A stretch of DNA of 64,000 nucleotides from positions 62,001 through 126,000 of the forward strand of contig DASWRM010000037.1 of assembly GCA_036403155.1 (NCBI GenBank). The letters run 5' to 3'. This document shows, piece by piece, positions 3,146-62,387 of this stretch. The notes beneath the pieces were generated by a model. That model was not told the origin of the DNA. It was given only the letters and a program-made list of their open reading frames with translations, and did not search any database. Position 1 is the first letter of the stretch. Each line of letters begins with the position of its first letter. Position numbers and translations under genes: made by a program. This DNA is from Gaiellales bacterium (GTDB lineage: Bacteria; Actinomycetota; Thermoleophilia; Gaiellales; JAICJC01).

Positions 3146-4528
3146 ATGCAGCGGCGGGTCCTGCTTGTCCTGGCCCTGGCGGCCGTGGCACCCGGTCAGG
3201 CGGCGGACGCGCTGGCCGGCGGGGCGACGGTCCAGACGACGCATGACCGCTACCGGCCGGCCGTCGTGTTCACGTATCCGGCGCCGGTGACGCTGACCGA
3301 CCCGTCCACGCAGGTGGCGTTGACCCGCGTCAGCACGGGCGCGGCTGTGCCTTTCACCGTGTCCGGGTCCGGCACGACAACCATCACCGTCTCGGTGGGC
3401 GCGACGCTCGCCTCCGGGGCGCAGTACACCGCGATGGTGTCACCGCCGCTCGACACGCCGGACACGGCGCTCTGGACGACTCGCGCCGCGCCGAGCCATC
3501 CGGCCCTGCAGGCCGTCGTCGTCGCCGCGGCGGCGCCGGACGCCGTCGACGACATCCTCCACCAGATCGACCGGGCGAACGTGCTGGCCGTGCCCCGCGC
3601 CTCGGATATCGTCGACATCTCGGCCGCCGGCCTGCACGCGCTGACGGCGGCCGATCTCCGCGGCTACCAAGCTGCCCTGGTCGTGACCGATGAGGACGTG
3701 TTCGACCAGAGCGCCGCGTCCGCCGTGCTGAGCGCGTACGCGGGAGCGGGCCACGGGGTCGTCCTGGCCGGCCAGACGCACTGGCCGAACGCGGGCGCCT
3801 GGGGGAACAGCTCGATCGGCGACCTGAACGGCACCTGGGCGGCGAACTGGAGCCCGCTCGGCTACGCGGCGCCGCCGGCCGTGGAGGGCGGGACGCTGAA
3901 CGCGGGCGGCATGACTGCGCACTTCCTGACGCAGAACCTGAGCGGCTTCACCGTGCACGGCCCGGGATCGGGTGCCGAGTCGTCGCACAACAGCTGGCAG
4001 GAGGCGGTGCTCGCCCGGCTGCACACGACGTCGGCGTACCACGTCGCGGGACAGTCGTTCATTGCGGTGCACTGGGAGGCGAAGGGCCAGCCGGGGCGCG
4101 TGGTCGACCTCGGCTTCGACCCCTGGTCCACCGACATCCCGAGCGGGGGCGGCGGGTACGACCCCGGCGAGGCCGGGCAGGCCGCAGCGCTGCTCTCGCG
4201 GGCGCTCTGGTGGGCGACCGACCGGATCCCGCCCACGCACACGCACTTCACGTCGAAGCCGAAGAACCCGTCGCCCTACCGGACGGTGTTCTTCACGATG
4301 GCTGCGAAGGATGCGGACCCCGGCTCGGCGTTCTCGACGCTGCGGTTCCAGTACCGGGTGAACAGCGGCCGGTGGAAGTGGGCGCCGGGCGGCGCGTCGT
4401 TCGCGCTCTACCACCTGCCCGCCGGGCACACCTACACGATCCGCGCTCGGGCCGTCGACTTCGCGGGGAACCGCGACGCGCACGCGGCGGTGTACCGATT
4501 CAGGGTGCCGGGCGGGGCGACGGGGTAG
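3146..4528 (+). CDS. Secreted protein, Rossmann-like domain plus C-terminal Ig/FnIII-like domain
   Basis: 460 aa. A signal peptide is evident (MQRR, then a hydrophobic Leu/Ala run, cleavage probably after the Ala-rich segment near residue 25). Residues 30-115 look like a beta-sandwich. Residues 120-355 carry an alternating pattern with ALVVTDEDVFDQ, GVVLAGQTHWP and VVDLGFDPWSTDI that recalls glutamine-amidotransferase-like or ThuA-like folds without catalytic residues I can name. The C-terminus (LRFQYRVNSGRWKWAPGG, YTIRARAVDFAGNRD) is the sugar-binding/FnIII-like module often attached to secreted enzymes. Function unknown; probably extracellular. Confidence 0.6.
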   Translation: MQRRVLLVLALAAVAPGQAADALAGGATVQTTHDRYRPAVVFTYPAPVTLTDPSTQVALTRVSTGAAVPFTVSGSGTTTITVSVGATLASGAQYTAMVSPPLDTPDTALWTTRAAPSHPALQAVVVAAAAPDAVDDILHQIDRANVLAVPRASDIVDISAAGLHALTAADLRGYQAALVVTDEDVFDQSAASAVLSAYAGAGHGVVLAGQTHWPNAGAWGNSSIGDLNGTWAANWSPLGYAAPPAVEGGTLNAGGMTAHFLTQNLSGFTVHGPGSGAESSHNSWQEAVLARLHTTSAYHVAGQSFIAVHWEAKGQPGRVVDLGFDPWSTDIPSGGGGYDPGEAGQAAALLSRALWWATDRIPPTHTHFTSKPKNPSPYRTVFFTMAAKDADPGSAFSTLRFQYRVNSGRWKWAPGGASFALYHLPAGHTYTIRARAVDFAGNRDAHAAVYRFRVPGGATG

Positions 4529-49039: not shown

Positions 49040-50221
49040 CTAGTTGAACGGTACGGTGACAGGCCCGGGAAGGCGTCGGTAGATCGCGAAGAAGTCGCGG
49101 TCGTCGGGAACGAGGTATCGGGTCGACGGTTGCTGGTAGTTCGGCACGATCTTGACCGGGTCGAGTGCTCCCTGGTGTGCGTAGGTGATCAGGGTCGGCC
49201 ACTCGGGGTTGATGTCGAGCTCCATCGCGCGTACGGCGCCCGCGCGCTGCAGGATCTTTGCGAGCGTTGTGACGGTCTGGTAGTCGGCGGCGGCATAGAT
49301 CAGGTTGCCGTGCCGGTCGATCCCTGCCCCGGTGCGCCATACACGGACAGCGTTGCCCAGGGTGTAGCCCCATTGCGTGCTGTCGTTGAGAGCGGGGCTG
49401 AGGCGGCCGTGGTCGACGATGAGCGGCAGGCTCTGGCGCGCGAATGCCACCTGCGGGCCGGCAACCGTACCGCCCGTCCAGCGCTTGACGTCGACTCGCC
49501 CGTCGCTGTAGGCGACGAGGGTGGCCAGGCCTCGCTTGAGCGGCTCATACGACGTCCCGCCGATTGACGATCCGTTGTTGCCGTCGCTGTAGATGAACCC
49601 GCCGTTGAATGTCGCCAGGAGACGCCAGCGCTGGTCGTTGGGCACCGACATCGGGCCGCGCACGGGTGCGTGCGGTGGCTCGTAGCGGCCCGGATACCAC
49701 GCGACGGACGTGCGCGTGTGGTCGAACCAGGCAACGTAGGCCACTATGCGTGGATAGAGGGTCTCTGTACGGAACGTCGTCAGCAGCACCGGCGGGTGGC
49801 CCCGCACCCTCGGACCGGTGCCCCTCCATACTCCTTCGCCGGGTAGTGGATGGGCGAAGACGGGCGTGATCCGTGGCGGCGCGTACGCCGGCTGCTGCTT
49901 CCCGGCCGGCTTGGTGGAGGGGGTGCCGACCCCCACGCTGGGAAGGCTCGTCAGCCGTGGGCCGCCCGGGTCCGGCGCCTTCCAGCTGTAGTAGTAATGC
50001 TCCACCTGATCGACCAGCCAGTTGCCATGGTGCGCTCTCAGCCACTCGACGCTGCGGGGCCAGAGCGGCAGGCTCGACGGCTCCATCATGGTGGTCGCGT
50101 AGGAGTACGCCACGGGTGCCAACAGCATCAGCAGTGCCAGCGCCGCGACGGTACGCACGCGCCACCGGCGTCCTCTGCGGCGGTGCTGCCGCGGACGGGA
50201 GCCGGTCGGCTCCGGTCTCAT
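49040..50221 (-). CDS. Membrane-anchored phosphodiester glycosidase-like (NAGPA/DUF2233) protein
   Basis: 393 aa. A basic N-terminus and one membrane helix (about 23-43) are followed by a linker and an extracellular domain. LLATFNGGFIYSDGNNGSSI, PLIVDHGRL, RTGAGIDRHGNLIYAAAD and RAMELDINPEW follow the NAGPA order, the last replacing the usual LDGGGS, so activity is uncertain. NAGPA-type enzymes remove GlcNAc from phosphodiesters, e.g. in wall polymers. ATG at 50219-50221. Confidence 0.75.
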   Translation of the reverse strand: MRPEPTGSRPRQHRRRGRRWRVRTVAALALLMLLAPVAYSYATTMMEPSSLPLWPRSVEWLRAHHGNWLVDQVEHYYYSWKAPDPGGPRLTSLPSVGVGTPSTKPAGKQQPAYAPPRITPVFAHPLPGEGVWRGTGPRVRGHPPVLLTTFRTETLYPRIVAYVAWFDHTRTSVAWYPGRYEPPHAPVRGPMSVPNDQRWRLLATFNGGFIYSDGNNGSSIGGTSYEPLKRGLATLVAYSDGRVDVKRWTGGTVAGPQVAFARQSLPLIVDHGRLSPALNDSTQWGYTLGNAVRVWRTGAGIDRHGNLIYAAADYQTVTTLAKILQRAGAVRAMELDINPEWPTLITYAHQGALDPVKIVPNYQQPSTRYLVPDDRDFFAIYRRLPGPVTVPFN

Positions 50222-50334: not shown

Positions 50335-51630
50335 CTACGCCGGCCGGAAGCGCACGACCGCCGCCGTACCGCCGCCGGGGGCGTCCTCGAGGCGGATGCC
50401 TGCATGGTGCTGCTCGGCGATCGACCCGGCGATCGCAAGGCCAAGGCCGCTCCCGCCAACCCCGCGGGAAGCCGATCCGCGATAGAACCGGTCGAACGCG
50501 TGCGCCCGGTCCTCATCGCTGAATCCAGCGCCGTGGTCGCGGACCTCCAGCCTGGCGCCGTCCGGCGAATCTGCGACAGAGATGGATACGGGCTGATCGG
50601 CTGAGCTGTACTTGATCGCATTGTCGAGGAGGATGCGCACGAGCTCTCCCAGCCGGCGAGGCTCGCCGTCGACCGTGGCCTCGCTCAGCTGAGCGTCGAC
50701 TCGCCGCCCGGGGTGCGCCGCCTGAAGCTCGGCGCAGGCCTCGCCGGCGATCCGGTCCAGGCGCTGTGGCCGCAGCGGGTCGCCCCCTCCCCCGGCGCCC
50801 GCGGCGAGAGTCAGCAGCTCGCTCAGCGTGCGGGCCAGCCGAGCACTGGTCTGGGCCACGATCAGGGCCGATTCGCGCGCTTGCTCGAGATCCCCGCGTT
50901 GCGCCGCGCGGTCGACGATGCGTGCATGACCTTGCAGCGCGGTGACCGGTGTCCGCAGCTCGTGAGATGCGTCGGCGATGAACCGCTGCTGCTCCTCGGT
51001 TGCCCGCTGGGCCCGTGCCAGCAGGCGGTTGAACGCTGCCGCCAGACGACCCAGCTCATCGGGCCGGCCCTCGCCGATGCGGCGGTCGAGCTCATCGCCG
51101 GGGATGGCGTCCACCTGGCGCCGCATCCGGTCGACCGGCTCCAGCACGCGCCGTGCAAGGAGCGCACCGGCCAGCGCCGACGCCGCCACCATGGCAAGCC
51201 CGACGGCGATCAGCGTCGACAACAGCGTGGAGAGGCTGGAGTCGAGGGTCGGGTTCGCCAGCAGGACGATCGCACTGCCGCCGTGGCGGCGAGGGGCGCG
51301 CGCCGCGGTCGAACCGCCGGGCGCATTCGCGATGGCCCTGTTGACGTCGGACAGCCTCGCTGTGCGAGGCCCGGCCGCATGGTTCTGCGCCACCACGGCA
51401 CCGGATCCGTTCGTCAGCCAGACGCGCGCGCCCGGCCCGGCGATCCGGTCGAGTGAGATCTCGTGGATATCCTCGAGCGAGGCCGCCGTCCGCGCGAGCG
51501 TTACCGCGTCACCGCGAGCGGTCGACCGCAGGCTGGAGCGCACCACCACATAGGTGATGGAGCAGGTGGCGATGACGAGCATCGTGACGGCAGCCGCGAA
51601 CAGCAAGGCCAGGCGGGTGCGAACCGTCAT
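50335..51630 (-). CDS. Sensor histidine kinase
   Basis: 431 aa. Two membrane helices (about 8-30 and 138-160) flank a short extracellular sensor of about 105 residues. HAMP follows, then H-box DASHELRTPVTALQG, N-box ILLDNAIKYSS, G1 VRDHGAGFSDEDRAH and G2 GVGGSGLGLAIA. The ATG overlaps the stop of the response regulator (ATGA), giving one RR-HK operon. Divergence from the ApbE redox operon suggests it controls that operon (inference). Confidence 0.92.
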   Translation of the reverse strand: MTVRTRLALLFAAAVTMLVIATCSITYVVVRSSLRSTARGDAVTLARTAASLEDIHEISLDRIAGPGARVWLTNGSGAVVAQNHAAGPRTARLSDVNRAIANAPGGSTAARAPRRHGGSAIVLLANPTLDSSLSTLLSTLIAVGLAMVAASALAGALLARRVLEPVDRMRRQVDAIPGDELDRRIGEGRPDELGRLAAAFNRLLARAQRATEEQQRFIADASHELRTPVTALQGHARIVDRAAQRGDLEQARESALIVAQTSARLARTLSELLTLAAGAGGGGDPLRPQRLDRIAGEACAELQAAHPGRRVDAQLSEATVDGEPRRLGELVRILLDNAIKYSSADQPVSISVADSPDGARLEVRDHGAGFSDEDRAHAFDRFYRGSASRGVGGSGLGLAIAGSIAEQHHAGIRLEDAPGGGTAAVVRFRPA

Positions 51631-52307
51631 GGCTTGACGGTGTAGCCGACCCCGCGCACGGTGCGGATCGGGGGATCGTCCGTGCCGGCTCCGAGCTTTC
51701 GCCGCAGTGTGGAGATGAAGTAGTCGATCACCTTCGAGTCGCCCAGGTAGCTGTAGCCCCAGACGCCTTCATAGATCTGCTCGCGGGTGAACACGCGGCC
51801 CGGGGCGTGCATCAGGAACGCCAGCAGGTCGAACTCCCGCGCGGTCAGGTCGAGCTCGCGACCGCCGAAGCTGGCCTCCCGCGTGTCGGGGTCGAGGCGC
51901 AGGCCGCCCGTCTCGAGCTCCGGCCCGTCGTCTCCCGCGCGGCGATGGAGCGCCCGCAGGCGCGCCAGCAGCTCCTCGATCGCGAAGGGTTTCGCCAGAT
52001 AGTCGTCGGCCCCCGCATCCAGCCCGATCACCCGGTCGCCTACACGATCGAGCGCCGTCAACATCAGGATCGGCATCGAGCGCCCGGAGCGGCGCGCCGC
52101 CCGGCAGACGCTGAGGCCGTCCGTGTCAGGGAGGCGTACATCGAGGATGACCGCGTCGGGCTGCTGCCGCTCGAGCGCAGCCAGGCCCTCCTGTCCCGTG
52201 CCCGCGACCTCGACCCGGTAGCCGGCCTCGAGCAGCTCCACCTCGAGCAGGCGCGCGATCGCCGGGTCGTCCTCGATCACAAGCAATCGCTGAGAGCCCT
52301 CGGCCAT
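51627..52307 (-). CDS. OmpR-family response regulator
   Basis: 226 aa. LLVIEDDPAIARLLE, phospho-acceptor VILDVRLPDTDGLS, LTALDRVGDRV and DDYLAKPFAIEE form the receiver; the winged helix has PGRVFTREQIYEGVWGYSY and VIDYFISTLRRKLG. ATG 52305-52307 lies 6 nt after TATGGT on the minus strand, so the mRNA is probably leaderless. It pairs with the overlapping histidine kinase. Confidence 0.93.
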   Translation of the reverse strand: MAEGSQRLLVIEDDPAIARLLEVELLEAGYRVEVAGTGQEGLAALERQQPDAVILDVRLPDTDGLSVCRAARRSGRSMPILMLTALDRVGDRVIGLDAGADDYLAKPFAIEELLARLRALHRRAGDDGPELETGGLRLDPDTREASFGGRELDLTAREFDLLAFLMHAPGRVFTREQIYEGVWGYSYLGDSKVIDYFISTLRRKLGAGTDDPPIRTVRGVGYTVKP

Positions 52308-52319
52308 GGGTCAACCATA
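52305..52319 (-). promoter_or_regulatory. -10 box of a leaderless promoter for the RR-HK operon
   Basis: On the minus strand TATGGT (52314-52319), 6 nt, then ATG 52305-52307. Confidence 0.5.
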
Positions 52320-52369
52320 GCCACGCGGGTCGGCCCTATCCGAATCCTTACCGAAGCCACGAACACTCC

Positions 52370-52426
52370 TCAACCGGCGCGCAGCTTCCCCCAAACCGAA
52401 CTGCCTACCGTGGGCTCATCAACCGG
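52370..52426. promoter_or_regulatory. Control region of the ApbE redox operon
   Basis: TACCGT at 52406-52411 is a possible -10 box, about 30 nt ahead of the first gene. TCAACCGG occurs twice in direct orientation (52370-52377 and 52419-52426), flanking it. These might be half-sites for the divergent response regulator; evidence is thin. Confidence 0.3.
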
Positions 52427-52440
52427 AAAGGACACCACCG

Positions 52441-52635
52441 ATGCTCACCCAGAAGCGTCACATACTCACCGTCGCCGCCATCGTCACCACGCTCACCATG
52501 GCGAGCGGTGTCGGCGCGGTCGCATTCCAGGCGGACCATGGCCCCGCGCAGATCGCGCATGGCTCGCAGGTCGTCACCACCGTCACGACTCCGGCGCCGA
52601 CGTACGTCGACGACATCGGCGGAGGGGATCGGTGA
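52441..52635 (+). CDS. Small exported protein, first gene of the ApbE redox operon
   Basis: 64 aa. MLTQKRHI then a hydrophobic run (TVAAIVTTLTMASGVGAVAF) make a signal anchor; the short exported part is rich in His, Gln, Thr and Val and ends YVDDIGGGDR. GGAAAGGA lies 8 nt before the ATG. No family known. It may be an accessory or target protein of the redox system. Confidence 0.55.
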   Translation: MLTQKRHILTVAAIVTTLTMASGVGAVAFQADHGPAQIAHGSQVVTTVTTPAPTYVDDIGGGDR

Positions 52636-52943
52636 TGATGCAGCGCATCTGGGCGGCGATCGCCGCGACCTGGGCCGTCATCGCGATCTTCGCGGTGCTG
52701 GCCTTCTCACACCGCGCCCCCGCTCCCTCGGGCGGAGCCGTCGTGCTGACGCGAAGCCCCAGCGGGAAGCTCGTCCCGGCCTCCCCGTCAACCGGTGCTT
52801 CGCACGCCACCACCGGGAGCTCGGGCGTTGCCACCGGGGCCGGCGTAGGCCAGACCGCGACCTATGTCAGAACCGCCTCCGGCGCCTACGTGCCGGTCTC
52901 ATCCGCCCCGACCACCGCAGCTGCGGTCACAAGGAGTTCCTGA
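52635..52943 (+). CDS. Small exported Ser/Thr-rich protein with an internal duplication
   Basis: 102 aa. A signal anchor (WAAIAATWAVIAIFAVLAF) is followed by an extracellular, low-complexity part containing two related blocks: LTRSPSGKLVPASPS and YVRTASGAYVPVSSA. The linker STGASHATTGSS resembles the small residues around flavinylated Thr sites but lacks the usual Asp. ATG 52635 overlaps the previous stop; GGAGGGG 7 nt upstream supports it. It may be a redox or flavin-carrying partner of ApbE, unproven. Confidence 0.5.
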   Translation: MMQRIWAAIAATWAVIAIFAVLAFSHRAPAPSGGAVVLTRSPSGKLVPASPSTGASHATTGSSGVATGAGVGQTATYVRTASGAYVPVSSAPTTAAAVTRSS

Positions 52944-53902
52944 TGCTCACGCTTCTCCGACACCGATTCGACGCCATGGGCACCGAGTGCTCCGTGGCGG
53001 TCACCGCTCCGATCTGGGCCGCAGGACGCGGCCGCATCGCAATCGCGGCCGCGCTGGTCGAGGTGGCGGCGCAGGAACGGTCGCTGTCTCGGTTCGATCC
53101 CGGCAGCGACCTGACCGCCCTGAACGCGAGGGCCGGCGGCTGGCATGCCGCAAGTGAGCGGCTGTACGCCGCCGTCGAGGCGGCCGTGCGGGCCCGCGAG
53201 GCCACCGGCGGCCGCTATGACCCAACCGTCCTGCCGGCCCTGATCGCGGCAGGCTACGACGGCTCTTACCGGGATCTTCACCCGCACGAACCCGGCAGGC
53301 TTGCCGGCTGGCGAGCGGGGGCGGTGATCGAACTGGACCCGGCGCAACGGCGAATCCGACTAGCGCCTGGCACGTCGGTCGACCTCGGCGGCATCGGGAA
53401 GGGCATGTCAGCCGCGGTGGCGCTCGATGCCATGCGCGATGCCTGGCCGGAGCTTCCGGGCGCGCTTGTTGACCTTGGAGGCGACATCGCCGTCACCGGG
53501 TCGCCGCCCGACCGCGGCGCGTGGCGCATAGACATCGCCGATCCACGGGCCCGAGGCCGGTGTCTCGGCACGATCGCACTGGCCACAGGCGGCGTTGCCA
53601 GCTCTGGACGCGACCGCCGGCGACTGGGCCGCGACGGCGCGGGCCACCACTTGATCGACCCCCGCACCGGCGGGCCGGCCGTGCCGGGGCCACTCGCCGT
53701 GACCGTGATCGGCCCGGGCGCCGGCGAAGCGGAGGCGCACGCAACCGCTCTGGCAATCACGCCCACGGAGCAGGCCACCTTCTATCTCGCGCCACACCCG
53801 CGGTTCTCGGCCATCATCGTCCCGAGCGCGGAGCCTCCCTTCACCGTCAATCACCCGCCGCTCGTTGCATGGGCCCCCGATTCACGGGAGACGGCGGCAT
53901 GA
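52943..53902 (+). CDS. apbE: ApbE: FAD:protein FMN transferase
   Basis: 319 aa. It starts FDAMGTECSVAVTAP; SRFDPGSDLTALNARAG, SVDLGGIGKGMSAAVALDAM, ALVDLGGDIAVTG and HHLIDPRTGGPAVPG follow in family order with the Mg/FAD-binding Asp and Gly residues. Family enzymes attach FMN to a Thr/Ser of extracytoplasmic redox proteins. No signal peptide is obvious here. AAGGAG 6 nt upstream sets ATG 52943, which shares a base with the previous stop. Confidence 0.92.
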   Translation: MLTLLRHRFDAMGTECSVAVTAPIWAAGRGRIAIAAALVEVAAQERSLSRFDPGSDLTALNARAGGWHAASERLYAAVEAAVRAREATGGRYDPTVLPALIAAGYDGSYRDLHPHEPGRLAGWRAGAVIELDPAQRRIRLAPGTSVDLGGIGKGMSAAVALDAMRDAWPELPGALVDLGGDIAVTGSPPDRGAWRIDIADPRARGRCLGTIALATGGVASSGRDRRRLGRDGAGHHLIDPRTGGPAVPGPLAVTVIGPGAGEAEAHATALAITPTEQATFYLAPHPRFSAIIVPSAEPPFTVNHPPLVAWAPDSRETAA

Positions 53903-54474
53903 CCATTGCAGCGGGGCTACCCGTGGCCTGGCTCGTGGCACGCGCCGCGGGACTGGTCGCCTTCGGCGTCCTGACGCTCTCGACCTGGCTCGGGCTGGGC
54001 ATGAGCACGCGGCTGCTGGGGCCGCGGTATCAGGCCCGGCTGATGGGCTGGCATCGCACGCTTGCATGGACCGGTCTGACAATGATCGGCCTGCATGTCG
54101 GGGCGGTGCTGGCCGACCCGGTGCTCGGGTTCGGTCTGCCGGCCGTCCTCGTCCCGTTCGCCGCACCCTGGCGGCCAGCGGCCATCGCCGCCGGTGTCAT
54201 CGCCGGCTGGCTGACGCTGATGCTGGTGATCTCCTTCCGGATGCGCCGCCGGATCGGCCAGCGCGGCTGGCGCACGCTCCACTATGCGAGCTTCGCGGCA
54301 TGGGTGCTGGCGCTCGGCCACGCGCTCGCGTCCGGCACCGACCTGGCCGGCATCGGCGGCCCCGTGTTGGTCGTGGTCGCCGGCGCCCCGGTGCTCTGGC
54401 TGAGCATCGTCCGCATCCTCACCCCGCGCGGCCGGTCGCGCACGCAGACGGCCGGGCAACCGGCGGCATCCTGA
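53899..54474 (+). CDS. Ferric-reductase-like transmembrane protein (haem b)
   Basis: 191 aa with five to six helices. Candidate haem-ligand histidines are in LMGWHRTLAWTG, MIGLHVGAVLA, RTLHYASFAAWVLALGHALA, the pattern of small ferric-reductase-like (MsrQ/YedZ-like) membrane domains. It can pass electrons across the membrane. ATG 53899 overlaps the apbE stop (ATGA). Next to ApbE and ferredoxin it is the likely membrane step. Confidence 0.78.
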   Translation: MTIAAGLPVAWLVARAAGLVAFGVLTLSTWLGLGMSTRLLGPRYQARLMGWHRTLAWTGLTMIGLHVGAVLADPVLGFGLPAVLVPFAAPWRPAAIAAGVIAGWLTLMLVISFRMRRRIGQRGWRTLHYASFAAWVLALGHALASGTDLAGIGGPVLVVVAGAPVLWLSIVRILTPRGRSRTQTAGQPAAS

Positions 54475-54516
54475 TTCCCCCACGAAGCAATCACCACCAC
54501 GACACTGGAGACGACC

Positions 54517-54726
54517 ATGAGCTGCACCATCATCATCGACCGCAACGTGTGCTCCGGCTTCGGAGCCTGCGTCGACGCCGCACCCGACATCTTCGCGATA
54601 GGGGTCGACGGCATCGCCACCGGGCCGCCGCAGACCGACGATCGCGACGCGGCACTGCGGGCAGCCCTCGAGTGCCCGATGGGCGCGATCACCGTGCTCG
54701 AGGACGACGGAGGGGAGGCACGATGA
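54517..54726 (+). CDS. Three-cysteine ferredoxin ([3Fe-4S]-type or variant [4Fe-4S])
   Basis: 69 aa. Cysteines 12, 18 and 53 are set as CSGFGACVDAAPDIF and ECPMGAI, the pattern of small ferredoxins that serve cytochrome P450s and similar oxidoreductases; the middle ligand position is Gly. GGAG 5 nt before the ATG. It overlaps the reductase gene by 4 nt and should carry electrons from it. Confidence 0.9.
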   Translation: MSCTIIIDRNVCSGFGACVDAAPDIFAIGVDGIATGPPQTDDRDAALRAALECPMGAITVLEDDGGEAR

Positions 54727-55901
54727 GCGCGATGCGCACAGACGTGCTGATCGTCGGCGGCGGTCTGGCCGGCGCCCGCACCGGCGAAAGCCTGCGGGCC
54801 GCCGGGTTCGACGGCACGGTCACGATCGCCGGAGCGGAGCCCCACGCCCCCTATGAACGGCCCGCGCTCTCGAAGGAGTACCTGCTGGGCGACCGGCCGG
54901 CCGCAGACCTCGCCCTGCGGCCGGCCGGCTTCTGGGACGAGGCCGCGATAGAGCTCTTGACCGACACAGCCGTGGTGAGCGTCGATATCCATGGGCGGGA
55001 GGCGCACGCCGGCAACCGGGTCATCCGCTGGCGTCACCTGGTGCTGGCTACTGGCGCGAGCGTTCGCCGCCTGCCGGCACTCGAGGGCGGCGGCAATGTC
55101 CACCACCTGCGCACCCTCGATGACGCCGGCCGCCTGGGCGACGCCCTCGCAAGCGCGTCGCGGCTGGCAATCGTCGGCGCCGGCTTTGTCGGCCTCGAGG
55201 TGGCCTCCTCCGCCCGGCGCCTGGGCGCGTCGGTCACGGTGATCGACCTCTCACCGATCCCCTTCGCGGCCGCACTCGGCCCGCTTGTCGGGACGCGAAT
55301 GGCCGCTTTCGCCCGCGACTCGGGCGTCGACCTACAGCTGGGCCGAACGATCGCGTCGGTCCGGCGTGACGGCAACCGCGTGCGACGACTGGTGCTCGAC
55401 AACGGCACAGAGATCGACTGCGACGCCGTGCTGGTGGGGATCGGCGCCCGGCCGACCAGCGACCTGGTGGCCCGCCAGTTGCCGCTGGAAGGCGACGGGT
55501 CCGTTGCTGTGGATGCGGCGGGTCGCACGGCGGCCGAGTGTGTCTTCGCCTGTGGCGATGTCGCATGCGTCAGCAGAGGGGCGACGCCGTCGGGCCGTGT
55601 CGAGCACTGGACGGCAGCGGCCGCGGGCGCGAGAGCTGTGGCCTCCGCCATCACCGGGACACCACAGCCGCCGCCGTTGCCCGCCTACTTCTGGACAGAC
55701 CAGTTCGACAGCCGGCTGCAGGTGCTCGGACGCATCGAACGGGGCGTCGAACCGGAGCTGCAATCCGGGGATGGCTGGTTCGTCGCCCGCTACCTCGGTC
55801 GTGACAAACGGCTGCAAGCGGTGGCACTGCTGAACCGCCCGGACCTTCTGCAAACGGCGAGGCATGAGCTGGCCGGTCGGCCGATAGCCGATGCCGCCTG
55901 A
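54723..55901 (+). CDS. NAD(P)H-ferredoxin reductase (FAD, putidaredoxin-reductase type)
   Basis: 392 aa. FAD loop VLIVGGGLAGARTGESL, ERPALSKEYLLG, ATG motif VLATGASVRRLP, NAD loop LAIVGAGFVGLEVASSA, and VFACGDVACV as the second FAD motif; the C-terminal domain contains YFWTDQFDSRLQVLG. This is the PdR/RhuA-type reductase. No P450 is adjacent; the operon instead supplies a membrane haem protein and ApbE. Confidence 0.92.
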   Translation: MSAMRTDVLIVGGGLAGARTGESLRAAGFDGTVTIAGAEPHAPYERPALSKEYLLGDRPAADLALRPAGFWDEAAIELLTDTAVVSVDIHGREAHAGNRVIRWRHLVLATGASVRRLPALEGGGNVHHLRTLDDAGRLGDALASASRLAIVGAGFVGLEVASSARRLGASVTVIDLSPIPFAAALGPLVGTRMAAFARDSGVDLQLGRTIASVRRDGNRVRRLVLDNGTEIDCDAVLVGIGARPTSDLVARQLPLEGDGSVAVDAAGRTAAECVFACGDVACVSRGATPSGRVEHWTAAAAGARAVASAITGTPQPPPLPAYFWTDQFDSRLQVLGRIERGVEPELQSGDGWFVARYLGRDKRLQAVALLNRPDLLQTARHELAGRPIADAA

Positions 55902-56259: not shown

Positions 56260-57492
56260 ATGAGCGCGAATCCGCAGCCGACCCAGTACGGGGACCGCCC
56301 GGTGTACTCGGTGGCCGGGTTCAACCAGGGCGTCGGCGGGTGGTTGCAGCGCCTGCCTGAGGTGTGGGTGGAGGGCGAGATCGCGGAGCTGAAGCACCAG
56401 GACAGGTGGGCCTTCGCGTACATGACGCTGAAGGATCCGGCGAACGGCGCGTGCCTGCCGGCGCTGATCGCGCGGACGAAGCTGGACGCGATCCAGCCGC
56501 AGCTGCGGGCGGGCGACAGGGTGCACGCGCTGGGACGGGCGGAGATGTATGCGAAGAAGGGGGAGCTGCGGTTCCGGGTGAGCGCGATCGAGCAGTTCGG
56601 GCTGGGGCTGGTGCTGCGGCAGATCGAGGAGCTGAAGCAGAGGCTCGCGGCCGAGGGGCTCTTCGCGGCGGAGCGGAAACGGGCGCTGCCGTTCCTGCCG
56701 AGGGTGGTCGGGCTGATCTGCGGGACGGACGCGGCGGCGAAGCGGGATGTGATCGAGACGGCGGAGCGGAGATATCCGCCGGCACGGTTCCGGGTGGCGG
56801 AGTCGGCGGTCCAGGGGGCGGGCGCGGTGCCGCAGATCCTGGCGGCGCTGCACAGGCTCGACCGCGACCCGGAGGTGGACGTGATCGTGCTCGCCCGGGG
56901 AGGTGGGTCGTTCGAGGACCTGCTGCCGTTCTCGGACGAGCGGCTGGTGCGGGCGGTGGCGGCGTGCGGGACGCCGGTGGTCTCGGCGGTCGGACACGAG
57001 CAGGACACGCCGCTCGTCGACCACGCGGCGGACGTGCGGGCGGGGACGCCCAGCCTGGCGGCGAAGCTGGTCGTTCCTGACCACGAGGCGGTGCGGGCTG
57101 AGCTGGACGGATTGGCAGGGCGGGCGGGACGGTCGCTGCAGGGCCGGGCGCACCGGTGTCGAGAGTCGCTGGAGCTGCTGGTGTCGCGGCCGGCGTTCGC
57201 GGACCCGGGATCGTGGATCACGGTGCGACGCGAGTCGGTGCGGCGATCCCGGGAGGCGCTGCAGCGCTGGCCGGTGCAGCGGCTGGAGCGCGAGCGGATC
57301 CACGTGCGCCACGCGCACGACAGGCTGCGGCTGCTGGGGCCGGCGGCGACGCTGGAGCGCGGGTACGCGATCGTGCAGGACGCGACGGGCCGAGTGGTGA
57401 CGCGGGCGGAGGCGGCCGGGCAGGGAGACCGGATCGCGATCCGGCTCGCGCAGGGCAGGCTCGGGGCGACCGTCGAGGAGGTGACGGAGTGA
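56260..57492 (+). CDS. xseA: Exodeoxyribonuclease VII large subunit
   Basis: 410 aa. An OB-fold N-terminus (VWVEGEIAELKHQDRWAFAY) precedes the catalytic domain: VVGLICGTDAAAKRDV, VIVLARGGGSFEDLLPFSDE, VVSAVGHEQDTPLVDHAADV and the closing LERGYAIVQDATGRVV. With XseB it degrades single-stranded DNA. The xseB GTG overlaps its stop (GTGA). Confidence 0.96.
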   Translation: MSANPQPTQYGDRPVYSVAGFNQGVGGWLQRLPEVWVEGEIAELKHQDRWAFAYMTLKDPANGACLPALIARTKLDAIQPQLRAGDRVHALGRAEMYAKKGELRFRVSAIEQFGLGLVLRQIEELKQRLAAEGLFAAERKRALPFLPRVVGLICGTDAAAKRDVIETAERRYPPARFRVAESAVQGAGAVPQILAALHRLDRDPEVDVIVLARGGGSFEDLLPFSDERLVRAVAACGTPVVSAVGHEQDTPLVDHAADVRAGTPSLAAKLVVPDHEAVRAELDGLAGRAGRSLQGRAHRCRESLELLVSRPAFADPGSWITVRRESVRRSREALQRWPVQRLERERIHVRHAHDRLRLLGPAATLERGYAIVQDATGRVVTRAEAAGQGDRIAIRLAQGRLGATVEEVTE

Positions 57493-58603: not shown

Positions 58604-58616
58604 TACGCTGAGACCG
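58604..58616 (+). promoter_or_regulatory. -10 box of a leaderless promoter for the transposase
   Basis: TACGCT at 58604-58609, 6 nt, then GTG 58616. Confidence 0.5.
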
Positions 58617-59173
58617 TGCCCCGAAAGCCTCGCATAGACTATGCCGGAGCGCTCCAGCATGTTGCCGTAAACGGCAACAACCGAGAGCCCATGTTCGTCG
58701 ACGCCATCGACCGCATGAACCTCCTCGCCCTTCTTCGCGGCACCGCGGAGCGATACCAGTGGCAGGTCTGGTCGTTCTGCCTGATGGACACCCACTGGCA
58801 CATGCTGCTGCGGACGCCGCGAACGCTCTCGCTCGGGATGCAGCGCCTGAACACGTGCTACTCGCGGACATTCAACGGGCGTCACGGACGGTCGGGCCAC
58901 TCGATCCGCCACAAGTTCATGTCGGTCCCCGTAGAGACCGACGTGCATCTGCGCGAGCTGACGCGCTACATCCCGCTCAACCCCGTCCGAGCGGGACTCG
59001 CAAGCCATCCGGAGGACTGGCCCTGGTCGAGCTACCGCGCCGAGCTCGGGCTGGAACCGGCACCCGACTGGACGGACGCCGGTTGGGCTTCGACGGTGCA
59101 CGGCGGCACCGACCGACTGCGCAGCTTCGTGGACGCCGGCATGGCCGCTGACGCCCCTGCACTCAGCGCGTGA
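58616..59173 (+). CDS. REP-associated tyrosine transposase (RAYT, Y1_Tnp domain)
   Basis: 185 aa. GALQHVAVNGNNREPMFVD, SFCLMDTHWHMLLRTP (the HUH-type His pair) and the C-terminal TRYIPLNPVRAGL with the candidate Tyr, followed by WPWSSYRAELGL, are classic for the Y1 single-strand transposase group related to IS200/IS605 TnpA. RAYTs are chromosomal, single copy and lack IS ends; they are linked with REP palindromes. A cluster of short repeats lies directly upstream. It converges on the acyl-CoA dehydrogenase gene with 11 nt overlap. Confidence 0.9.
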   Translation: MPRKPRIDYAGALQHVAVNGNNREPMFVDAIDRMNLLALLRGTAERYQWQVWSFCLMDTHWHMLLRTPRTLSLGMQRLNTCYSRTFNGRHGRSGHSIRHKFMSVPVETDVHLRELTRYIPLNPVRAGLASHPEDWPWSSYRAELGLEPAPDWTDAGWASTVHGGTDRLRSFVDAGMAADAPALSA

Positions 59174-61794: not shown

Positions 61795-62387
61795 ACCGTG
61801 CTCCTTGCGATCAGTGGAATTCCAAGCTCGTTCGTCAGGGCACCGAGGATCAGGTCGGCCGCCCGCTCGTGGGTCGTCACGCCCGACAGGATCTGCAGGC
61901 CGAGCCCGTCGACCAGCGCCGCCAGCCGCTGCGTGGCGTCGGCGACCGGTACCTCGAGCCGCACCGACCCCTCGTCGCGCGCTTGCTCGATCAGCCCCTG
62001 GATCTGCTCGATCCACGTCGTCGAGGAGCGCCGCACGCTGGCCGCGAGCCGCTCGTCGAAGATGGAGCTGCGCCACATCTCGACCCACAGCACCCAGTCG
62101 TCGCGGAAGACGGCGTCCGCGCCCGCGTAGATCAGCAGCAGCCGCCTGAGCCGGTCGACCGCGCTGGGGATGTCCGCGATCGCCTCCTCCGCCGCCTCGT
62201 CCGCCTTGACGTCGGCATGCTCGAACGCCTGCATCAGCAGGTCGGCGCGCGTGTCGAAGTAGTAGTGCAGCAGCGCGCTGGACACGCCCGCCTCGCGGGC
62301 GACGGTGCCCATGCGAAGGCCGTCCGCGCCCTCGCGGGCGATGACACGGCAGGTTGCGTCGAGGATCTCGGTCTTGCGGTCGGCCAT
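61791..62387 (-). CDS. TetR-family regulator of the Rieske operon
   Basis: 198 aa. The N-terminal helix-turn-helix LRMGTVAREAGVSSALLHYY is typical, with a BetI-like C-terminal part (WVLWVEMWRSSIFDERLA). ATG 62385-62387 lies 9 bp from a perfect 20-bp palindrome. It probably represses its own operon until a ligand related to the oxygenase substrate binds. Confidence 0.9.
   Translation of the reverse strand: MADRKTEILDATCRVIAREGADGLRMGTVAREAGVSSALLHYYFDTRADLLMQAFEHADVKADEAAEEAIADIPSAVDRLRRLLLIYAGADAVFRDDWVLWVEMWRSSIFDERLAASVRRSSTTWIEQIQGLIEQARDEGSVRLEVPVADATQRLAALVDGLGLQILSGVTTHERAADLILGALTNELGIPLIARSTV

Follow-up and report, generated by a model that had tools for sequence, protein, structure and literature searches.

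A short C-terminal Ser/Thr motif in a candidate flavin acceptor encoded beside apbE in a Gaiellales electron-transfer operon

An operon in the draft genome of a Gaiellales bacterium encodes an ApbE-type flavin transferase together with a ferric-reductase-like membrane cytochrome (FRD), a ferredoxin and a ferredoxin reductase, but no domain known to bind flavin mononucleotide (FMN). This raises the question of which protein the enzyme flavinylates. The operon lies in a stretch of 64,000 nucleotides (positions 62,001 to 126,000 of contig DASWRM010000037.1, assembly GCA_036403155.1), referred to here as the window. A first-pass annotation had proposed as acceptors two small exported proteins of 64 and 102 amino acids (aa) encoded ahead of apbE, here called S1 and S2. 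On comparative sequence analysis, S2 is with moderate confidence the ApbE acceptor, with lower confidence for any particular residue or terminal acceptor. The assignment is made because the known substrate families searched for are absent, S2 adjoins all three apbE genes of the genome, its C-terminal motif is conserved, and S2 and FMN_bind are mutually exclusive.

S2 and the missing substrate of ApbE

ApbE, encoded at 52943..53902 on the plus strand (PF02424, E = 4e-48), matches solved FMN transferases (PDB profile, E = 6e-47). All 101 loci of the S2/FRD type keep the catalytic Ser and His, and also D147, K153 and D181, unchanged. Both fold and catalytic residues point to an FAD:protein FMN transferase (FAD, flavin adenine dinucleotide). 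The apbE start codon overlaps the stop codon of the S2 gene (52635..52943, plus strand); S2 has no family match, and its homologues also adjoin apbE.

The substrates described in the available text of PMC8238504, PMC11334425 and PMC12052999 are FMN_bind, NqrB/RnfD, DUF2271, DUF3570, Flavodoxin_4 and FMN_red. The source of the window is a 3.2-Mb draft genome of 79 contigs that is 98.4% complete, and FMN_bind, DUF2271, NqrB/RnfD and DUF3570 are absent from all of it, ruling them out as substrates encoded elsewhere; Flavodoxin_4 and FMN_red were not searched for. The lack of an FMN-binding domain that the first-pass annotation had noted in the operon therefore holds for FMN_bind genome-wide. Neither S1 nor S2 matched PF04205 (FMN_bind) at E 0.01, and S2 gave no match even at E 0.1. 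Each of the three apbE genes is preceded by an S2-type gene whose product ends in TRSS, TRTS or TSQS. The two outside the window belong to further S2–ApbE–FRD clusters (locus L052, contig C70:80000-99000), whose S2 proteins end in PVTRTS and ASTSQS. Response regulators are encoded close to them, and one cluster also includes a ferredoxin and a reductase of its own.

ApbE searches in the same order and in named genomes, flanking DNA included, yielded about 160 ApbE loci, many of them from metagenome assemblies. The conserved end of S2 is found again in Actinomycetota, Chloroflexota, Bacillota and Myxococcota, where differing codons specify it. The earlier proposal depended on small exported proteins being conserved beside apbE, and this was confirmed in many genomes of several phyla. 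Two layouts dominate among FRD-bearing loci, FRD–FMN_bind–apbE and (S1)–S2–apbE–FRD. The latter is that of the window, and in it FRD starts about 900 bases after the apbE start. S2 with FRD was found in 72 of the classified loci and FMN_bind in 23, while none had both. Gene position and mutual exclusion thus suggest that S2 is a substitute for FMN_bind.

The enzymes divide in the same way. In a quick ApbE tree, all 23 FMN_bind-linked enzymes fall in one clade of 49 rows (Shimodaira–Hasegawa-like approximate likelihood-ratio test, SH-aLRT, 99) with no S2-linked member. Tail type requires 12 changes on the ApbE tree, compared with at least 32 when shuffled. Genomes with multiple loci hold several tail types, each matching its own ApbE clade (e.g. 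L172, L174). As far as these sequences go, enzyme and tail change together.

S2 proteins (median length 113 aa) consist of one N-terminal hydrophobic membrane helix, a low-complexity linker rich in A/S/P/T/V/G/Q and devoid of cysteine, and a conserved C-terminal end. More positive charge precedes the helix than follows it in 57 of 73 proteins, which therefore look N-in/C-out. AlphaFold2, applied to the window S2 as a single sequence, predicted a helix at residues 2-25 and the remainder with low confidence, which is weak evidence without an alignment; the low confidence fits a disordered linker.

The C-terminal motif and its possible meaning

The tail pattern was noticed among the first 16 loci and defined after this first look as [S/T]-x-x-[S/T]-COOH, counts also allowing a trailing R or K, [S/T]xx[S/T](R/K). 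It was present in 63 of 91 membrane open reading frames (ORFs) upstream of apbE, as against 6.0 +/- 2.3 in shuffled tails, for which the largest count in 2000 shuffles was 14. Background ORFs carried it in 12 of 402 cases and FMN_bind proteins in 0 of 11. Thinning to 34 ApbE clusters (50% identity) left 23.1 versus 2.5 shuffled (largest 8 of 1000). The motif was also found in 26 of 34 loci of the same order that were fetched after the pattern had been noticed. In a position profile (n = 50), Ser/Thr occupied −1 in 38 tails and −4 in 42, and Pro occupied −8 in 33. Observed C-termini include TRTS, TRSS, SGGS, SGGT, THVS, TSTS, TSQS, SSGS and TRSSR. The [S/T]-x-x-[S/T] spacing of ApbE substrates is therefore found at a conserved place, and the Thr/Ser block suggested by the first-pass annotation does exist, at the extreme C-terminus of S2.

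Misses at L034, L172(-), L174, L210 and L173 are accounted for by HATTxxS a few residues before the end. The window S2 is homologous to these five proteins, which stop soon after this block (HATTATS, HATTQTS, HATTRTS), whereas the window protein runs about 39 residues further to TRSS. The window S2 may accordingly have up to three candidate sites: TGAS at residues 53-56 (52791..52802), canonical-looking as [S/T]GA[S/T]; TGSS at residues 60-63 within HATTGSS (52812..52823), the counterpart of the relatives' HATTxxS; and the terminal TRSS at residues 99-102 (52929..52940), the proposed site of FMN attachment, all on the plus strand. Duplication of the two S2 halves is suggested by an internal repeat, but weakly, since 0.45% of shuffles score as high.

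The tail persists in other gene arrangements. S2 lies downstream instead of upstream at L045, L183, L186 and L179 and still ends in SGGS. At L211 (G116:C340, ORF ~3173 to 4468), ApbE, a membrane helix and an S2-type tail, PPVAVSGGS, form one reading frame. At a further locus (L203, G008:C56), two S1–S2 pairs flank one apbE–FRD and both S2 proteins end in PASAAS. Two Actinomycetota loci (L093, L116) have CTGSKCP or CSGSKCP at the end of the ORF ahead of apbE, possibly a disulphide-closed variant of the tail.

An origin of the motif in a Shine-Dalgarno sequence or start overlap was considered and rejected. AAGGAG does lie within the codons for TRSS in the window. Relatives, however, encode the equivalent residues by ACACGGACATCG, ACCCGAACCTCG or TCCGGCGGCTCG, often with no ribosome-site sequence, and the tail remains in loci where S2 does not lie ahead of apbE. 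The motif is not a ribosome-site artefact because six codons are in use for the last-position serine.

Several observations weigh against flavinylation of S2. The main weakness is that the tail shares spacing and hydroxyl residues with the consensus D-x-x-[S/T]-G-A-[S/T], but not its G-A or Asp. The internal TGAS of the window is without the consensus Asp and is not kept in aligned homologues, so that the full DxxS/T-G-A-S/T motif is lacking there as well. The strict [S/T]GA[S/T] shows no excess in the linkers of S2 proteins (4 of 82 versus 3.7 shuffled), and a linker motif of this kind was rejected. True exceptions to the C-terminal motif are the S2 proteins of L040 and L206. These two loci are of one genus; the membrane segment is kept, the end is Gly/Asn-rich, and one has an internal TGAT where the other has SGAQ. 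The enzyme also deviates. In the window, Glu stands in place of the triad Asp (E264, placed by alignment and the residue spacing given in PMC12052999). S2-linked ApbEs mostly have E, D or N there and often Lys for the conserved Thr that follows; FMN_bind-linked ApbEs retain both Asp and Thr. Lastly, neither a signal peptide nor a lipobox was found in ApbE of the window or its relatives, the domain beginning at the first residues. The S2 tail is probably outside, and flavinylation would then need to precede its export.

Signal peptides or lipoboxes are usual for ApbE but not universal, and cytosolic ApbEs are known. FMN_bind-linked ApbEs of the same order likewise have no room for a signal peptide, and the topology problem is therefore not peculiar to S2. 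As to the consensus, loss of Asp had a minor effect in one ApbE substrate and changes of Gly or Ala left about half the activity; ApbE also modifies 7-residue tags, best at termini (PMC12052999, available text). On these data the deviations of the tail would be tolerable, which is not proof of modification.

The missing G-A and Asp and the missing signal peptide would both suit an S2 tail that is an unflavinylated recognition or docking signal, for ApbE, FRD or S1, with ApbE modifying another protein such as FRD or a product of a distant gene. This explanation is considered unlikely. None of the tested substrate families occurs in the genome, and FRD was rejected as the flavinylated protein since the Thr of its sole candidate, [S/A]G[T/A]D, is not constant. 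Moreover, S2 takes the place of FMN_bind by gene position and mutual exclusion, and its conserved last residue is a hydroxyl amino acid at the ApbE-motif spacing. The altered triad Asp and Thr of many S2-linked ApbEs, and an FRD that stands alone without a flavin domain, would suit a different role, in which ApbE supplies or trims FAD/FMN in the manner of an FAD pyrophosphatase, FRD uses free flavin as MsrQ does together with flavin reductase, and S1 and S2 are structural or metal-binding. Such a role is improbable, as the catalytic His and Ser are invariant and both the constraint on the C-terminal Ser/Thr and its co-divergence with ApbE would be left unexplained. It is scarcely credible that an ordinary MsrQ-like cluster has lost its FMN-binding gene in the 79-contig assembly, the small ORFs being incidental or derived from the ribosome-binding site within the TRSS codons: with the genome 98.4% complete, 0 of 72 S2 clusters in many genomes having FMN_bind nearby, tail codons varying and tails persisting away from the apbE start, this is refuted unless ORF calling erred systematically.

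Membrane cytochrome, S1 and electron input

FRD (53899..54474, plus strand) scores 27.9 bits against PF01794, just below the 28-bit cut-off. Nevertheless, 95-96 of 96 relatives share its four haem-type histidines, at 51, 65, 127 and 140 (counted after Met), and five long helices are predicted. The best PDB matches of its AlphaFold2 model in Foldseek were membrane domains of STEAP and NOX, at a probability of 1.00 but an E value of about 0.06, in line with a membrane cytochrome b of the MsrQ/STEAP/NOX type. The FRD proteins of L180, L174 and L052 carry a C-terminal extension of ~150-180 aa with no Pfam match and GSLHG or GTLDV-like ends.

Downstream are a 3-Cys ferredoxin (54517..54726, plus strand; Fer4_15/Fer4_13, with CX5C and CP cysteines) and a ferredoxin reductase (54723..55901, plus strand; Pyr_redox_2 and Reductase_C). 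The latter is dependent on reduced nicotinamide adenine dinucleotide (phosphate), NAD(P)H, and its nearest solved relatives are the rubredoxin, putidaredoxin and toluene-dioxygenase ferredoxin reductases. Input modules differ between loci. The window has a separate ferredoxin and reductase, L069 has NAD-binding and 2Fe-2S modules, and at L046:3544-5826 FRD is fused to a NuoF-like NADH-binding module (Complex1_51K and NADH_4Fe-4S). S2–ApbE–FRD is the constant part and the ferredoxin/reductase input is detachable. Beyond ApbE, FRD and the two-component system, no conserved extra neighbour that would name the terminal acceptor was recognised.

S1 (52441..52635, plus strand) is membrane-anchored or exported, belongs to no Pfam or NCBIfam family and ends in VDDIGGGDR. 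Its relatives, found also in Chloroflexota, Acidimicrobia and Rhodococcus zopfii, are exported and have tails that are often Asp/Glu/His-rich and end in DD. They have these acidic tails instead of a conserved Ser/Thr motif, and S1 was rejected as the acceptor. Of the two acceptors first proposed, the 102-aa protein is thus retained for its C-terminal motif, while the 64-aa protein is probably not one. A possible role of S1 is instead to bind metal or the basic S2 tail.

Genes in the operon overlap at four of five junctions; FRD and the ferredoxin, at the fifth, are 42 bases apart. Gene order is kept in relatives. Third codon positions of the S1 and S2 ORFs are high in G+C, like those of adjoining genes; the start codons of these small ORFs are predictions. 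A scan of the locus for promoters and terminators found none. Upstream and divergent are genes on the minus strand for an OmpR/PhoB-type response regulator (51627..52307; Response_reg and Trans_reg_C) and a sensor histidine kinase (50335..51630; HAMP, HisKA and HATPase_c), and such a pair occupies the equivalent position in many relatives. The first-pass annotation had placed the whole system at 51627-55901; all of its genes were found where described, with the kinase falling outside that interval. Just downstream of the kinase, 49040-50221 (minus strand) encodes a protein anchored in the membrane that has a phosphodiester glycosidase (NAGPA) domain. After the operon, inspection by eye indicated an exodeoxyribonuclease VII large-subunit-like ORF (56260-57492, plus strand), then a small-subunit-like ORF, and a REP-associated (TnpA-like) transposase ORF (58616-59173, plus strand).

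We infer flavinylation, the exact residue, the order of electron carriers, the terminal acceptor and regulation as follows. The operon would encode an MsrQ-like system for exporting electrons across the membrane, whose flavin carrier is S2, a membrane-anchored disordered leash in place of a folded FMN-binding domain. ApbE would attach FMN to the last Ser/Thr of the C-terminal [S/T]-x-x-[S/T], in the window the terminal TRSS and possibly also TGSS at residues 60-63. A plausible electron path leads from NAD(P)H through the ferredoxin reductase, the 3-Cys ferredoxin and the two haems b of FRD to FMN at the S2 tip. S2-FMN would take electrons from the outer haem of FRD and carry them into the cell envelope, where the extracytosolic acceptor might be a metal ion that S1 binds through its acidic tail. 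Control of the operon probably lies with the two-component system.

Relation to known flavinylation systems

The proposal of a new electron route was only partly upheld. MsrQ-like flavinylation systems, in which ApbE is encoded beside a PF01794 membrane cytochrome with NAD(P)H as the likely donor, were already described by Meheust et al. in 2021 (PMC8238504, available text). According to the same text they are widespread in Actinobacteria, and NuoF-linked and NAD-domain variants such as it describes also occur among the relatives here. What stands as unusual is the substrate and the detachable ferredoxin/reductase input. The window has the PF01794 cytochrome with two pairs of haem-type histidines and it has apbE, but S2 stands directly upstream of apbE where the MsrQ-like cluster typically, though not strictly, has an FMN-binding domain gene. 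Gene order also differs, S2–apbE–FRD as opposed to FRD–FMN_bind–apbE, and the input consists of a ferredoxin and a reductase as separate proteins.

FMN_bind (PF04205) substrates such as NqrC/RnfG and PplA resemble S2 in being exported or membrane-anchored and encoded directly upstream of apbE in the same order. They are, however, folded domains of ~120 aa with SGATxTS, whereas S2 has no recognisable fold and its motif is at the C-terminus. FMN_red, reported in 2024, shares with S2 a motif on an unstructured C-terminal extension, but the substrates of that report keep a flavodoxin-like flavin site that S2 is without (PMC11334425, available text). Also comparable is the artificial flavin-tag, a short ApbE-recognised peptide at a protein terminus; it is engineered and has the canonical DxxSGAT, and S2 would be its equivalent in nature, bearing another motif (PMC12052999, available text). 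The available texts of PMC8238504, PMC11334425 and PMC12052999 make no mention of C-terminal-tail substrates of the S2 kind. Within the open-access literature the S2–ApbE arrangement appears previously undescribed, and an earlier description elsewhere is possible.

The 2021 survey states that less prevalent substrates remain unidentified, with 4% of flavinylation-positive genomes (670) having ApbE and no recognised substrate (PMC8238504, available text). S2 is short, of low complexity and without a Pfam or NCBIfam model, and would therefore escape domain searches. There is an even chance, in our estimation, that S2 proteins are widespread minimal flavoproteins without a flavin-binding fold, consisting of a helix and a disordered leash with a C-terminal Ser/Thr flavinylated by a dedicated ApbE subfamily. 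If so, they would explain some of the orphan apbE genes found in Actinomycetota, Chloroflexota, Bacillota and Myxococcota. ApbE would recognise substrates in a second way, by a hydroxyl residue at the C-terminus, and there would be a natural flavin-tag served by an enzyme subfamily of its own. FMN would then swing between a cytochrome in the membrane and cell-envelope acceptors, and if the tip of S2 carries it, flavin can be an electron carrier without a surrounding protein pocket.

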